A stretch of DNA of 64,000 nucleotides from Bryobacterales bacterium F-183 (lineage in GTDB: Bacteria > Acidobacteriota > Terriglobia > Bryobacterales > Bryobacteraceae). Both the position numbers and the translations under genes were made by a program. The DNA is taken from contig AP025252.1 in the NCBI GenBank assembly GCA_016865505.2, forward strand, positions 5,416,137 to 5,480,136, given 5' to 3'. Within the stretch, counting starts at the first letter, position 1; each line of letters opens with the position of its first letter. This document shows positions 21,907 through 26,401 of the stretch, piece after piece. Below the pieces are notes generated by a model. That model had not been told where the DNA came from, ran no database searches, and saw nothing but the letters and a program-made list of their open reading frames with translations.

Positions 21907-22743
21907 TTAGTCGGGCTGTTTGCGCGAATGCTGCGACACAAAGTTATCCAGCTCTTCAACGATCTCGAGCTCATTCGGCGGGGTGGTCAAAGCCACGGCC
22001 CAACCGGATGCGGTGAGATTCAACAGCACGCTCCGTTGCTGCGATTCATAGTTAAGCTTGACCTTTTGCGAGCCCGTGTGGTCGGCCAGGTGGCGGACAT
22101 CCGACAGTAGGCCAGAAGCGTCGAAGAGGGCGAGCAACGATGCGCCGCCCCAGCGAAACATCATGGTGTCCGGTGGCAGCTTTTGACCAAGGAACTGCGC
22201 GTACTGCCGGATCGACATTTGTCCGGCGTCGGTGCCGTAGCGCGTCACCATATACCGCAGACGGTCGATGACGAAGACCACTCCGTAACGCGGGCGGCCC
22301 ATGGATCGGGCAGACTGAATGGCTTTGATACCCAGGTCGCGACCGGGCAAGCCGGTGAGCGCATCGGATACGCGACCTGCAGGAAACAGGTCGTCCTCCA
22401 GAGTGTGGAACTTAGTGGCCGACTCCTCAAAGGCACTGTTGAGGACGGAAAGGTCAGCTTCAGACGAAGCATCCGTCTCTTCGTCGGCACCGGCGGAGTC
22501 GAGATTTGAGCCTCCACCGCCCACACGGATACTGCGCACGAGTTCGCGGCAACTTTTGGTGAGAGCCGTTGCGACGTTCAAATGATCGATGATCTGTTCG
22601 ACGTCCGTCTGCTCAAACTTGGTGCCTTCCGAGGCGAGTTCCGCCAAGCGATTGCTCAGTAGCTCAATGTTCTGGTGGACATTGGCTGAAATTTGTGTGG
22701 CCCCGGTTATTCCGGGACTGAATGATTGATCTTCAGTCGGCAA
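21907..22743 (-). CDS. Degenerate GGDEF-domain protein
   Basis: A 278-residue cytoplasmic protein. Residues 1-125 form a helical region. The part from about 127 has the GGDEF-domain landmarks SDALTGLPGRDLGI (family D-x-LTGL-x-NR), VVFVIDRLRYMVTRYG (family FDIDxFKxxND-YG) and MFRWGGASLLALFDA, where the signature GGDEF is GGAS. Loss of the acidic pair and of the second-site aspartates predicts no diguanylate cyclase activity; it may bind c-di-GMP or GTP, or act as a protein-interaction domain. TTG at 22743 has GAAGG upstream. It is divergent, 52 bp away, from a receiver-PAS protein whose C-terminus resembles this domain. Confidence 0.72.
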   Translation of the reverse strand: MPTEDQSFSPGITGATQISANVHQNIELLSNRLAELASEGTKFEQTDVEQIIDHLNVATALTKSCRELVRSIRVGGGGSNLDSAGADEETDASSEADLSVLNSAFEESATKFHTLEDDLFPAGRVSDALTGLPGRDLGIKAIQSARSMGRPRYGVVFVIDRLRYMVTRYGTDAGQMSIRQYAQFLGQKLPPDTMMFRWGGASLLALFDASGLLSDVRHLADHTGSQKVKLNYESQQRSVLLNLTASGWAVALTTPPNELEIVEELDNFVSQHSRKQPD

Positions 22744-22795: not shown

Positions 22796-24034
22796 ATGGA
22801 CACAAACGCTCCGTTGGAAATACTACTTGTAGAGGACGACGCCTCTGCTGGAACCGAGATCCAGCAGTCGCTGGCGGACCTTGGCTATGTGGTGACACAC
22901 GCTTCCACGGGCGAAAGCGCTCTTGAAGCGGCGGTAGACAAAAAGCCAAAACTGGCCATTGTCGCAACCCATCTGAGCGGCACGCCGGACGGGCCTGAAA
23001 CCGCAAGGGAATTGGCCAGCCAAGGCGTATCGTTATTGTTTCTTGCTGCCAGCCTGAGAGAGGCCCGTCCACTGCTGGACCTGAAGCCCCTGGGTGGTTT
23101 GGTGAAGCCACTGCGCGATGGCGAAGTGGAGATGGTGCTGGCGATGGCGCGCCTACTCATGGCCGAACGCGAACAGTCGCAGGTGCTGGCGCAGGCGATG
23201 GAGACGGTGACAGAAGGTATCTTTCTGCTCGATTCGACCAAGCGGATCGTTTTTGCCAACAGCGCAGCGTTGCGGATCGCGCAGGCCGAGCGTCCTGCGG
23301 ACGGCCAGCCGCTCGATGAGTTCTTCCCGATGAAGGATGGCCAGAATGAGGCGCTGATGCAGTCCCTGCAGCAGATTCAGGATGGTGCGCAGGCTGGCGA
23401 AGTTGGCATGGAAGCGATTCTGCAGGCACCTGAGGGTGGTACCGAACAGAAGGTACGACTATGGTCCGGACCGGCGGCGGGCGGCGGCATTACACTACGG
23501 TTCCAGCTGTATGTACGGCCTGGAGCCAACAGCAGCAAGGATGATAGGTCCTCGACGATGGCGGAGGGCGGTTCGGCGCAACAACCGATCCGTGAAAAGG
23601 CAATCCGCGCGATCGAACTGCGTCTGGAAGCGGGCGCCGGCATCAATCACTACGCCGCTGTGTTTACCCTCAGCCAGTTTGATACGTTCTGGACGCGATA
23701 CGGTCTTTCGAATGCGGAGAATCTGGTGGAAGCGTACGCTGCACACCTCACGCGCACCTTTCCAAACGAACGTATCTATCGCTGGAGCAACCGCACCATC
23801 GCGCTGCTTCTGGACCGCGAAAGTACGCCACCGGATGTGCGCATGGAGTTAACGTCGTTCACCACGCGGCGCGTCGATTACTACCTGAATACGGTGGGGC
23901 GAAGTGCACTGGTGACCTTGTCGCCGGCCTGGCGGCTGATTCCGCTCAACTGCGATCCTGAGCAGTCCTTCGATACGGAAGAGGTCATTCGCCGCATCGA
24001 ACAATTTGAACGGGAACACACGCGCATCCGCTAA
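22796..24034 (+). CDS. Atypical response regulator: receiver, PAS and degenerate GGDEF
   Basis: A 412-residue protein. The receiver-like domain (8-115) keeps the acidic cluster VEDD (12-15) and the conserved lysine in LVKPL (K104), but the phospho-accepting aspartate is replaced (PKLAIVATHLSG, Ala57), so phosphorylation in the usual way is unlikely. A PAS-like domain follows (about 130-230; TVTEGIFLLDSTKRIVFANS). The C-terminal region (about 280-410) aligns with the degenerate GGDEF of the divergent neighbour: YAAVFTLSQFDTFWTRYG and IYRWSNRTIALLLDR, where even the GG is lost. The pair looks like an ancient duplication. Probably a non-catalytic signalling adaptor. Confidence 0.72.
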   Translation: MDTNAPLEILLVEDDASAGTEIQQSLADLGYVVTHASTGESALEAAVDKKPKLAIVATHLSGTPDGPETARELASQGVSLLFLAASLREARPLLDLKPLGGLVKPLRDGEVEMVLAMARLLMAEREQSQVLAQAMETVTEGIFLLDSTKRIVFANSAALRIAQAERPADGQPLDEFFPMKDGQNEALMQSLQQIQDGAQAGEVGMEAILQAPEGGTEQKVRLWSGPAAGGGITLRFQLYVRPGANSSKDDRSSTMAEGGSAQQPIREKAIRAIELRLEAGAGINHYAAVFTLSQFDTFWTRYGLSNAENLVEAYAAHLTRTFPNERIYRWSNRTIALLLDRESTPPDVRMELTSFTTRRVDYYLNTVGRSALVTLSPAWRLIPLNCDPEQSFDTEEVIRRIEQFEREHTRIR

Positions 24035-24037
24035 ATG

Positions 24038-24077
24038 AAAAAGACGCCCCCGATGTCGGAGGGCGTCTGGATCTTTT
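24038..24077. terminator. Bidirectional terminator
   Basis: Stem AGACGCCC (24042-24049) with GGGCGTCT (24061-24068), extended by an inner CCGA/TCGG pair. A five-A run precedes it on the left and a TTTT run ends it at 24077. It serves the receiver-PAS gene on the plus strand and the PilZ-J gene on the minus strand. Confidence 0.8.
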
Positions 24078-24106: not shown

Positions 24107-25045
24107 TCAGGAAGCGAGCAGGCGGTCTTCACGGGTCTGCCGTGCGGACTCTGCCGCTGCGGCGGCTGCTGCGGCAGCAGTCGACTGTTCTTCAAAGTAG
24201 TCCACACCTTTAATGGTGATGGTGAACCGGCCGTTGTCGGACCTTGTCACAAATCCAGCTTCGCGAAGGTACCAGAAGTTGAACTCCAGGTGTTCCTTGG
24301 GAACGCCGAGCATGGTCTCAAACTCGTGCATGGTGAGTTCCGGGGTTCGGGGCTCCTGGATGCACTTGTTGTAGAGCATGCCTAGAATCCCTTGGCGCTT
24401 GCGGCGCTCGCCTTCGACGCCCATCACCTGCACTGGTTTTTCGAAGATCTTCCAACGGCGCTGTTGGATCTTGGTCAGGCGCAGGTCGTAAGCAGCACGC
24501 TGCTCCGGATCGGTTAGGGTTTGGTAGCCCTTGGTAAGAAGCCGGAACATCTGCTCGTCTCCGGTTTCCTTGTTGTCAGGATGAAAGCGCTGGGCCTGGA
24601 GGCGGTATACACGGTGGATGGTTTCTACATCCGCCTTGGGATTGATCTGCAGCAGTTCGTAGTAATCGGCTTCGACCGAGCCATCGTCGGGTGCGGCACC
24701 ATCCGCTTCGCCCTCCGGGGATTCCGCGTTCGCGGCGTTCGGCCTAAGTTCGTAGGTGACGCCAATCCGGTACTCGGAGCCGAGACCCTTGTGACACCAG
24801 GTGACCTTACCCTTGCGAGCCTGACGCAGATCGTCCTCGAACTGGATGATCGTACCTGGGCTGACAGGTTCGCGACAGCTTAGGCCGACGCCGTTGTCGT
24901 GGTAGTCCACAATGCGGGCGCGGGAACGGTAGTGCCCACCATCCTCGCCGATCAAAAGATCGACGATCGGGCCCAAAATCTTGCGTACGCGCTGGCGCTG
25001 GCGACGGTTTGTACCCGGAGGCGGCGGCTGAGTTCCCTGCTGCAT
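24107..25045 (-). CDS. PilZ-like domain fused to a J-domain
   Basis: About 312 residues. The N-terminal part (12-100) looks like PilZ: an arginine cluster RRQRQR (14-19) and [14 protein letters not shown], where the c-di-GMP motif (D/N)xSxxG appears as DYHDNG with His for Ser. A J-domain follows (128-187, [22 protein letters not shown]) with an intact HPD at 155-157, so it could stimulate a DnaK. The C-terminal third is a winged-helix-like region ([30 protein letters not shown]) and an alanine tract (24150-24182). ATG at 25045 has AAGAAAG upstream; ATG at 25081 is the longer alternative. The combination is unusual. Confidence 0.72.
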
Positions 25046-25147
25046 GCTTCTTTCTTCGGCAGGTTCGACCGATTTGCGCATCGGTCAAAGCAATTAGCAG
25101 GTGATAAGGTTTCACCCCAGCCTTTTCCTGGGCCGGGCGACGCTAAA

Positions 25148-26401
25148 ATGAAGAATATGCCAGTTTCTTCGCGCCGCCGCTCCATTCCTGTAAACGTGGG
25201 GGGCGTCATGGTCGGTGGAACCCACCCGATTGTGGTTCAGTCCATGACCAACACCGATACGGCCAACGTAACGGCTACCGTCAACCAGACGATGGCGCTG
25301 GCGCAGGCGGGGTCGGAGATTGTCCGCGTGACAGTGAACACGGACGAGGCGGCCCAAGCCGTACCGAAGATTTGCGAGACGCTGTACAAGTTCGGCGTAC
25401 GGGTTCCGATTGTCGGGGACTTCCACTACAACGGTCACCTGCTGCTGCGCAAGTACCCGGATTGCGCCAAGGCTTTGGCGAAGTACCGGATCAACCCCGG
25501 CAACGTCAACATCGGCAAAAAGCACGATGACAATTACCGCGCGATGATCGAGGCGGCGATCGAATATGGCAAGCCGGTCCGGATTGGGGTGAACTGGGGG
25601 TCGCTCGACCAGGCGCTGCTTGCGAAACTGATGGACGAAAATAGCCAATTGCCGGAGCCCCTCGATTCGCAACAGGTGATGCGGAACGCCATTGTTGCCA
25701 GTGCTTTGATGTCGGCTGAGGCCGCCGTGAATTACGGTCTGGCGAAGGACAAGATCCTGCTGAGCGCGAAGGTAAGCATTGTGCAGGACCTGATTACGGT
25801 TTACAGGGATCTGGCGTCGCGCTGCGAGTACGCGCTGCATTTGGGATTGACCGAGGCCGGTCTTGGCGCGAAGGGCATCGTGGCGACCACTGCAGCGCTT
25901 TCTGTTCTGCTGCAGGATGGTATTGGCGATACGATTCGCGCGTCGCTGACTCCGCTACCGAACGGCGACCGTACCGAGGAAGTGACGGTTTGCCAGCAGA
26001 TTCTGCAGTCTCTGGGCCTGCGTAGCTTTACGCCGCAGGTGGCGGCATGTCCCGGATGCGGGCGTACGACGTCCACCTTCTTCCAGGACATGGCGGACCA
26101 GATCCAGACCTACCTCCGGCAGCAGATGCCGAATTGGAAGGAACGGTACGCCGGGGTCGAAGAAATGAAAGTGGCGGTGATGGGCTGCGTGGTGAACGGA
26201 CCGGGCGAGTCGAAGCATGCCAACATCGGCATTTCGCTACCCGGAACCTTTGAGGAACCGGTGGCGCCCGTGTTCGTGGATGGGGTCAAGACGGTGACCT
26301 TGCGCGGCGACAATATCGTCGCAGAATTCATCCAGATCTTGAATAACTACGTTGAACGGAAATATACTCAACAAAACACAAGCGAACCTGCGCTTGTATG
26401 A
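25148..26401 (+). CDS. ispG: 4-hydroxy-3-methylbut-2-en-1-yl diphosphate synthase (IspG/GcpE)
   Basis: A 417-residue [4Fe-4S] enzyme of the MEP isoprenoid pathway, reducing the cyclic diphosphate to HMBPP. It begins [30 protein letters not shown], the family start. A TIM-barrel domain is followed by the cluster-binding cysteines in [14 protein letters not shown] and [21 protein letters not shown] at 25148 is used; ATG at 25157 is also possible. ispE, another MEP gene, lies 7 kb downstream on the other strand, so the pathway is present but dispersed. Confidence 0.97.

Follow-up and report, generated by a model that had tools for sequence, protein, structure and literature searches.

The gene described here lies on the reverse strand of a 64,000-nucleotide stretch, called the window below, of the genome of Bryobacterales bacterium F-183 (6.28 Mb). 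Its features and those of its surroundings are presented in Table 1. The enclosing open reading frame spans 24107-25081 and codes for 324 amino acid residues, but the start was placed at an internal ATG because similarity to the protein of a sister species (locus L038, MAG SZAS-8; 86% identity) begins at that methionine. The resulting protein consists of a divergent PilZ barrel at the N-terminus, a J-domain with an intact HPD motif and a winged-helix-like domain at the C-terminus, the last being weakly supported. PilZ is a sensor-type domain that in many proteins binds the signal molecule c-di-GMP, and the J-domain is the part of a co-chaperone that activates DnaK. This arrangement of three domains is abbreviated PilZ-J-WH, and its last two domains J-WH.

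Table 1. Features of the PilZ-J-WH gene and of neighbouring sequence, in positions of the window
Feature	Position	Strand	Basis
PilZ-J-WH gene, 312 aa, ATG at 25045	24107..25045	-	Open reading frame; sister-species similarity from that Met; purifying selection
PilZ domain, residues 14-101 (six strands within 27-98)	24743..25006	-	hhalign; AlphaFold and structure comparison; Pfam matches of relatives
RxxxR half of c-di-GMP motif, RQRQR, residues 15-19	24989..25003	-	Sequence; in 16/17 PilZ-J-WH proteins
Second motif half, DYHDNG, residues 47-52, His for Ser	24890..24907	-	Sequence; aligned to the Ser in other PilZ proteins of this genome
Fast-evolving PilZ-to-J linker, residues 102-126	24668..24742	-	dN 0.70, dS 0.66 over 23 codons
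J-domain, residues 127-187 (139-199 of 324-aa ORF)	24485..24667	-	Pfam DnaJ E 6.7e-16; PDB sequence matches to Hsp40 J-domains
HPD motif, residues 155-157	24575..24583	-	Sequence
Winged-helix-like C-terminal domain, residues 209-286	24188..24421	-	Conserved in 21 aligned members; weak wHTH Pfam matches; MarR-like rows Z ≤ 6.8
Terminator-like hairpin downstream of PilZ-J-WH gene, between convergent genes	24042..24068	-	Consensus scan only; 4 sites in window vs 1.6 expected by shuffling
Convergent neighbour: receiver-like, PAS and degenerate GGDEF-like end (RWSNRTI)	22796..24034	+	Context only
Degenerate GGDEF protein (RWGGASL)	21907..22743	-	Pfam GGDEF E 8.9e-6; context only

The J-domain is the only domain above the Pfam cut-off in the window protein, and with its intact HPD it was found as the original prediction had it. 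Neither a zinc finger nor a DnaJ C-terminal domain is reported for this protein by Pfam (E ≤ 1), and a Gly/Phe-rich stretch is not visible in its sequence. Among 45 aligned J-WH rows the HPD is kept in 42, including all 21 with an N-terminal PilZ or PilZ-length domain; the exceptions, L005, L059 and L074, are all without PilZ. Judged by its sequence, the window protein very probably activates DnaK. The three exceptions form one long-branched clade together with L029. L005, a paralog of the J-WH type from the genome of the window (G000:C1:5791940-5792428, reverse strand), has SRA replacing HPD, while L059 has NPR, L074 has HPE and L029 keeps HPD. Some members of this J-like clade probably no longer activate DnaK.

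A PilZ-like N-terminus had also been proposed, with structure prediction as one way of checking it. Of 12 N-termini that were aligned, eight are matched by the Pfam PilZ family PF07238 at E ≤ 1, with 2e-9 as the best value; that of the window protein, for which no PilZ match is obtained at this threshold, is not among them. A Pfam scan of ten long homologs gave DnaJ in all ten and PilZ above the cut-off in seven; these seven include one that barely passes (22.6 bits against a cut-off of 22.5) and L084, which has the His motif DLHEDG and matches at E 9.9e-10. When the alignment of the 12 N-termini was compared by hhalign with six PilZ proteins from the window's genome, the result was 97.8% (E 7.9e-13, 83 columns), against 0.8% in a control with the C-terminal alignment in its place. 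A PilZ profile gave no match at E < 0.1 to PDB sequences.

The AlphaFold model of residues 1-104, built from two sequences only, has six strands and a pLDDT of 78.4, with ten-residue means of 76-92 over residues 21-100. Thirteen of the best 14 rows in the structure comparison are PilZ proteins, and the remaining one is the phage-type protein XkdH. The values are Z 9.8 (rmsd 2.4, 75 aligned) for BcsA, Z 9.4 (rmsd 2.4, 71 aligned) for PA0012, Z 9.2 (rmsd 2.5, 76 aligned) for VCA0042 and Z 9.6 (rmsd 2.6, 75 aligned) for XkdH; phage neck proteins rank lower. Since PilZ and phage-type structures both score, the fold alone would not settle the identity of the domain. The barrel is also present in the model of the whole protein (pLDDT 52.5), where it matches VCA0042 with c-di-GMP at Z 9.5. 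The PilZ-like N-terminus is borne out by the Pfam matches of the relatives, the comparison with the PilZ proteins of the same genome and the six-stranded barrel of the model, and the PilZ assignment, taken from profile, motif and fold together, is secure.

In the window protein the RQRQR segment lies 28 residues ahead of the motif Asp. The replacement of the PilZ Ser by His, noted in the original prediction, is indeed present, so that DYHDNG departs from the canonical D/NxSxxG and the protein is not classed here among the canonical c-di-GMP-binding PilZ proteins. Seventeen PilZ-J-WH proteins, the window's included, were compared at the third position of the second motif, which was chosen by eye in each: Ser occurs in eight, His in five, Thr in two, and Gly and Ala in one each. 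RxxxR stands upstream in 16 of them and at a distance of 27-29 residues in 15; the exceptions are L012, with a spacing of 39, and L015, which has no RxxxR. The His variants span three genera (g1, g10 and g24), and all five keep RxxxR. As RxxxR is kept despite the change from Ser to His, binding in the window's genus may be weaker or altered. A tight J-WH clade of four further proteins (L061, L062, L071 and L073) has a PilZ-length N-terminus in which a D/NxSxxG-like motif was not found.

Two proteins of Myxococcus xanthus bear on these motifs. In PixB the Ser is missing from both PilZ domains, and c-di-GMP is bound all the same, while PlpA has the conserved c-di-GMP residues yet is reported as non-binding (PMC8316039). 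The latter case means that the motif is no proof of binding. From their sequences, the PilZ-J-WH members with the full motif are rather likely to bind c-di-GMP. The window protein, as a His variant, may also do so, with a chance somewhat below even.

The C-terminal domain is plausibly a winged helix, as had been suggested, but this part of the original prediction stands on a low-confidence model, on MarR-family structural matches of limited score and on Pfam matches below the cut-off. The model has the pattern H-H-H-E-E-H, and MarR-family structures match it at Z ≤ 6.8 (2rdp: rmsd 3.0, 73 aligned). The wHTH matches in Pfam are all sub-cut-off, with Mrr_N found weakly in 10 of 21 members, and the C-terminal profile has no match at E < 0.1 among PDB sequences. 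The net charge of the domain ranges from -4 to +1 across the 21 members and is -2 in the window protein, and the presumed recognition helix is much alike between paralogs. Whether this domain loads clients is a balanced question, with about equal weight on either side.

The window protein and that of L038 differ by 1 of 79 amino acids in the J-domain, 6 of 83 in the winged-helix-like domain and 17 of 101 in PilZ. The corresponding NG86 values of dN/dS are 0.015/1.61, 0.043/1.58 and 0.11/1.30, where the dS values above 1 are rough estimates. Each of the three domains is under purifying selection and the J-domain is constrained most, while in the 23 codons of the linker purifying selection is not detectable.

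The search for this domain order in other genomes, which had been proposed together with the prediction, was successful. Some J-domain match was found in all 41 genomes searched, the window's own included. By counts derived from match ranges and reading frames, PilZ-J-WH is present in 13 of the 41 (own included; in G017 the gene is cut by the contig) and J-WH of any kind in 22. In a draw of 396 Acidobacteriota genomes the C-terminal domain occurs in at least 17, a lower bound since 12 candidates were scored per genome. Of the 23 places from this draw, three belong to the window's genome, and no usable reading frame was obtained at two others (L067 and L068). In another family of Acidobacteriota, L054 has a full-motif PilZ (DISESG) ahead of J-WH. 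On plasmids no place covering 80% of the PilZ-J-WH protein was found. Seven loci, L039-L045, were considered as relatives and set aside as ordinary DnaJ proteins by sequence.

In the tree of the 45 J-WH rows, 19 of 42 inner branches are well supported. The PilZ-bearing rows do not form one clade (p-AU 7e-31), and at least five changes are needed, in a count that leaves out L019 (cut by a contig end) and scores L061, L062, L071 and L073 as PilZ by judgement. The tree thus indicates that PilZ has been joined to, or lost from, one J-WH core repeatedly. The occurrence of J-WH with and without PilZ, and the scatter of the PilZ rows over the tree, fit PilZ as an add-on.

Strong GGDEF matches occur at six places in the window's genome and strong EAL matches at five, and c-di-GMP is therefore probably both made and broken down by this bacterium. 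The genome also has a full-length DnaK with an adjacent DnaJ gene and a second Hsp70 with an adjacent J-domain gene, the latter pair perhaps being HscA/HscB. The median number of GGDEF places is 8 in the 13 genomes with PilZ-J-WH and 2 in the 28 without, and within family f1 it is 7 (11 genomes) against 3.5 (14 genomes; p 0.010), neither comparison being corrected for kinship. When any J-WH protein is counted instead, family f1 shows no significant difference (5 in 19 genomes against 3.5 in 6, p 0.40).

A link with flagella was considered and rejected. Flagellin_N, which also matches the hook-associated FlgL, as in the window, is found in 11 of 13 genomes with PilZ-J-WH and in 13 of 28 without (p 0.04, 41 genomes), but within family f1 the numbers are 9 of 11 and 13 of 14 (p 0.56). 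In genus g30, one genome (G037) has the gene, flagellin and ten GGDEF places, whereas both the gene and flagellin are absent from two others (G036 and G038), each of which has a single GGDEF place; this contrast is a single case and is suggestive. Nine genomes of genus g26 (G026, G028-G031, G033, G034, G039 and G040) gave no GGDEF, flagellin or J-WH match.

The PilZ-J-WH gene is divergent from ispG (25148-26401) on one side. On the other side, the original prediction had placed it beside a degenerate GGDEF pair. The adjacency is real and is kept in L038, but it carries little as evidence: the nearer gene of the pair is convergent, a terminator-like hairpin lies between, and the arrangement was not found outside the genus. 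The farther gene is on the same strand as the PilZ-J-WH gene but beyond the convergent one. An operon or neighbourhood link with the pair was accordingly rejected as evidence, synteny being seen in the sister species and in none of 15 regions from other genera. The GGDEF/GGEEF signature is absent from both neighbours. The farther protein and the L038 counterpart of the nearer one are 26.7% identical; their GGDEF-like domains are related, and the pair stays adjacent in L038.

In these 15 regions, which extend up to about 8 kb per side and are much shorter in several cases at contig ends, 14 other genes of the window were looked for near the PilZ-J-WH gene, and no match to any of them was obtained. 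A co-directional neighbour at a short gap occurs in some regions (for example L076, L078, L083 and L084), and its type differs nearly every time. Twenty flanking genes in other genomes, some of them inexact because frames were picked greedily and in some regions an opposite-strand frame over the gene was chosen, are of various kinds, with roles in metabolism and transport and with a GntR regulator and an SMC-type ATPase among them; none matched chaperone, GGDEF or EAL families at E ≤ 0.001, and three had no match at all. In G021 a PilZ-J-WH gene with a full-motif Ser PilZ has an ATGA overlap with the stop of a gene for a receiver-domain protein, and in G012 one PilZ-J-WH copy is followed, about 0.9 kb downstream and on the same strand, by a PAS-GGEEF gene. 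These two contexts are suggestive. The receiver-domain protein of G021 (L086, 6137-7729, forward strand) contains two stretches of receiver domain and matches VpsR weakly, and the overlap resembles a translationally coupled pair.

The window protein shares a J-domain with HPD with the DnaJ/CbpA (Hsp40) family, but differs from it in that Pfam reports neither zinc finger nor DnaJ C-terminal domain for it and no Gly/Phe-rich stretch can be seen. In CbpA the J-domain is paired with a second binding function. MrkH and YcgR/MotI, like the window protein, combine a PilZ barrel with an output part, which in them is not a J-domain and serves in DNA binding or motor control. The nearest relatives in make-up come from M. 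xanthus, where 4 of 24 PilZ proteins have a DnaK or DnaJ domain and so, like the window protein, carry PilZ and an Hsp70-system domain in one polypeptide; the likeness is by description, and the text consulted gives neither the number of DnaJ fusions among the four nor their order of domains and mentions no winged-helix C-terminus (PMC8316039). CsdK1 and CsdK2 of the same species are PilZ-DnaK chaperones whose proposed client, CdbS, is itself a PilZ protein; they share PilZ on a DnaK machine, although theirs sits on DnaK and the window's on a J-protein (PMC10313047, from the portion consulted). A fusion of PilZ with DnaK or DnaJ is thus already known. The literature searched, which covered few subscription papers and the sources above in part, contained no PilZ-J-winged-helix protein and no PilZ with DnaJ in Acidobacteria; the combination with a winged-helix-like C-terminus and the spread of this combination in Acidobacteriota were not found there.

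These observations allow us to propose, at what we consider an even chance, that the protein is an Hsp40-type co-chaperone tuned by a signal, in which a common J-WH core recruits DnaK and PilZ is an addition to this core that in some members probably binds c-di-GMP. The C-terminal domain would hold a client or partner. This is probably a protein, because the charge of the C-terminus lies between near neutral and acidic in most members and paralogs differ little in its presumed recognition helix. Through HPD, the J-domain would stimulate the DnaK ATPase, and DnaK would be loaded onto this partner. PilZ, which has the full c-di-GMP motif in several relatives, would gate the J-WH core through the flexible linker. 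A link from c-di-GMP to DnaK, as originally envisaged, is plausible in view of the kept RxxxR and of PixB, but the Ser position is also T, G or A in this family. A more far-reaching form is rather unlikely: an Acidobacteriota family of c-di-GMP-gated Hsp40s, in which ligand on PilZ would expose or hide the J-domain and so time the loading of DnaK onto the partner of the winged-helix-like domain, the His variants having a shifted affinity or ligand.

The PilZ of the window's clade may instead have lost c-di-GMP binding and become a fixed domain for protein binding or dimerisation, so that the protein would be a constitutive specialised co-chaperone. This is tentative, though a serious possibility. 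The Ser is replaced in 9 of 17 proteins by four different residues, four more PilZ-length N-termini show no second motif half, and the window PilZ has no Pfam match; against this, RxxxR persists in 16 of the 17, all five His variants included, and its spacing is near-constant in all but one of them (L012, a His variant); purifying selection acts on PilZ, and PixB binds c-di-GMP without the Ser (PMC8316039). It is unlikely that the protein is a DNA-binding regulator with its winged helix on DNA, a J-domain that would bring DnaK to remodel the regulator or the bound complex, and PilZ as a ligand switch. Such a role would agree with the wHTH-like pattern, the MarR-family rows, the weak matches to transcription-factor wHTH families, the coupling to a receiver-domain gene in one genome and the presence of MrkH, titled a c-di-GMP-dependent transcription factor, among the PilZ structural rows. 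However, the C-terminal charge is low or negative throughout the 21 members and in the window protein, the structural Z is only middling, and the presumed recognition helix is alike across paralogs, unlike in regulators with different targets. An ordinary J-protein with an accidental N-terminal extension would explain why only the J-domain passes the Pfam cut-off in the window protein, but it is very improbable in view of the PilZ fold, the conservation of the motif, the selection on the domain and the recurrence of the architecture in several genera and one other family of the phylum.

For the co-chaperone reading, nature provides useful variants on the same J-WH core, namely full-motif Ser, His and PilZ-free forms, and the role of PilZ can be tested by comparing them. 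The nearest precedent found in the literature searched for a choice of DnaK clients gated by c-di-GMP is the work on PilZ-DnaK proteins of M. xanthus. If c-di-GMP gates the J-domain, the second messenger would act directly on the client choice of the DnaK machine.
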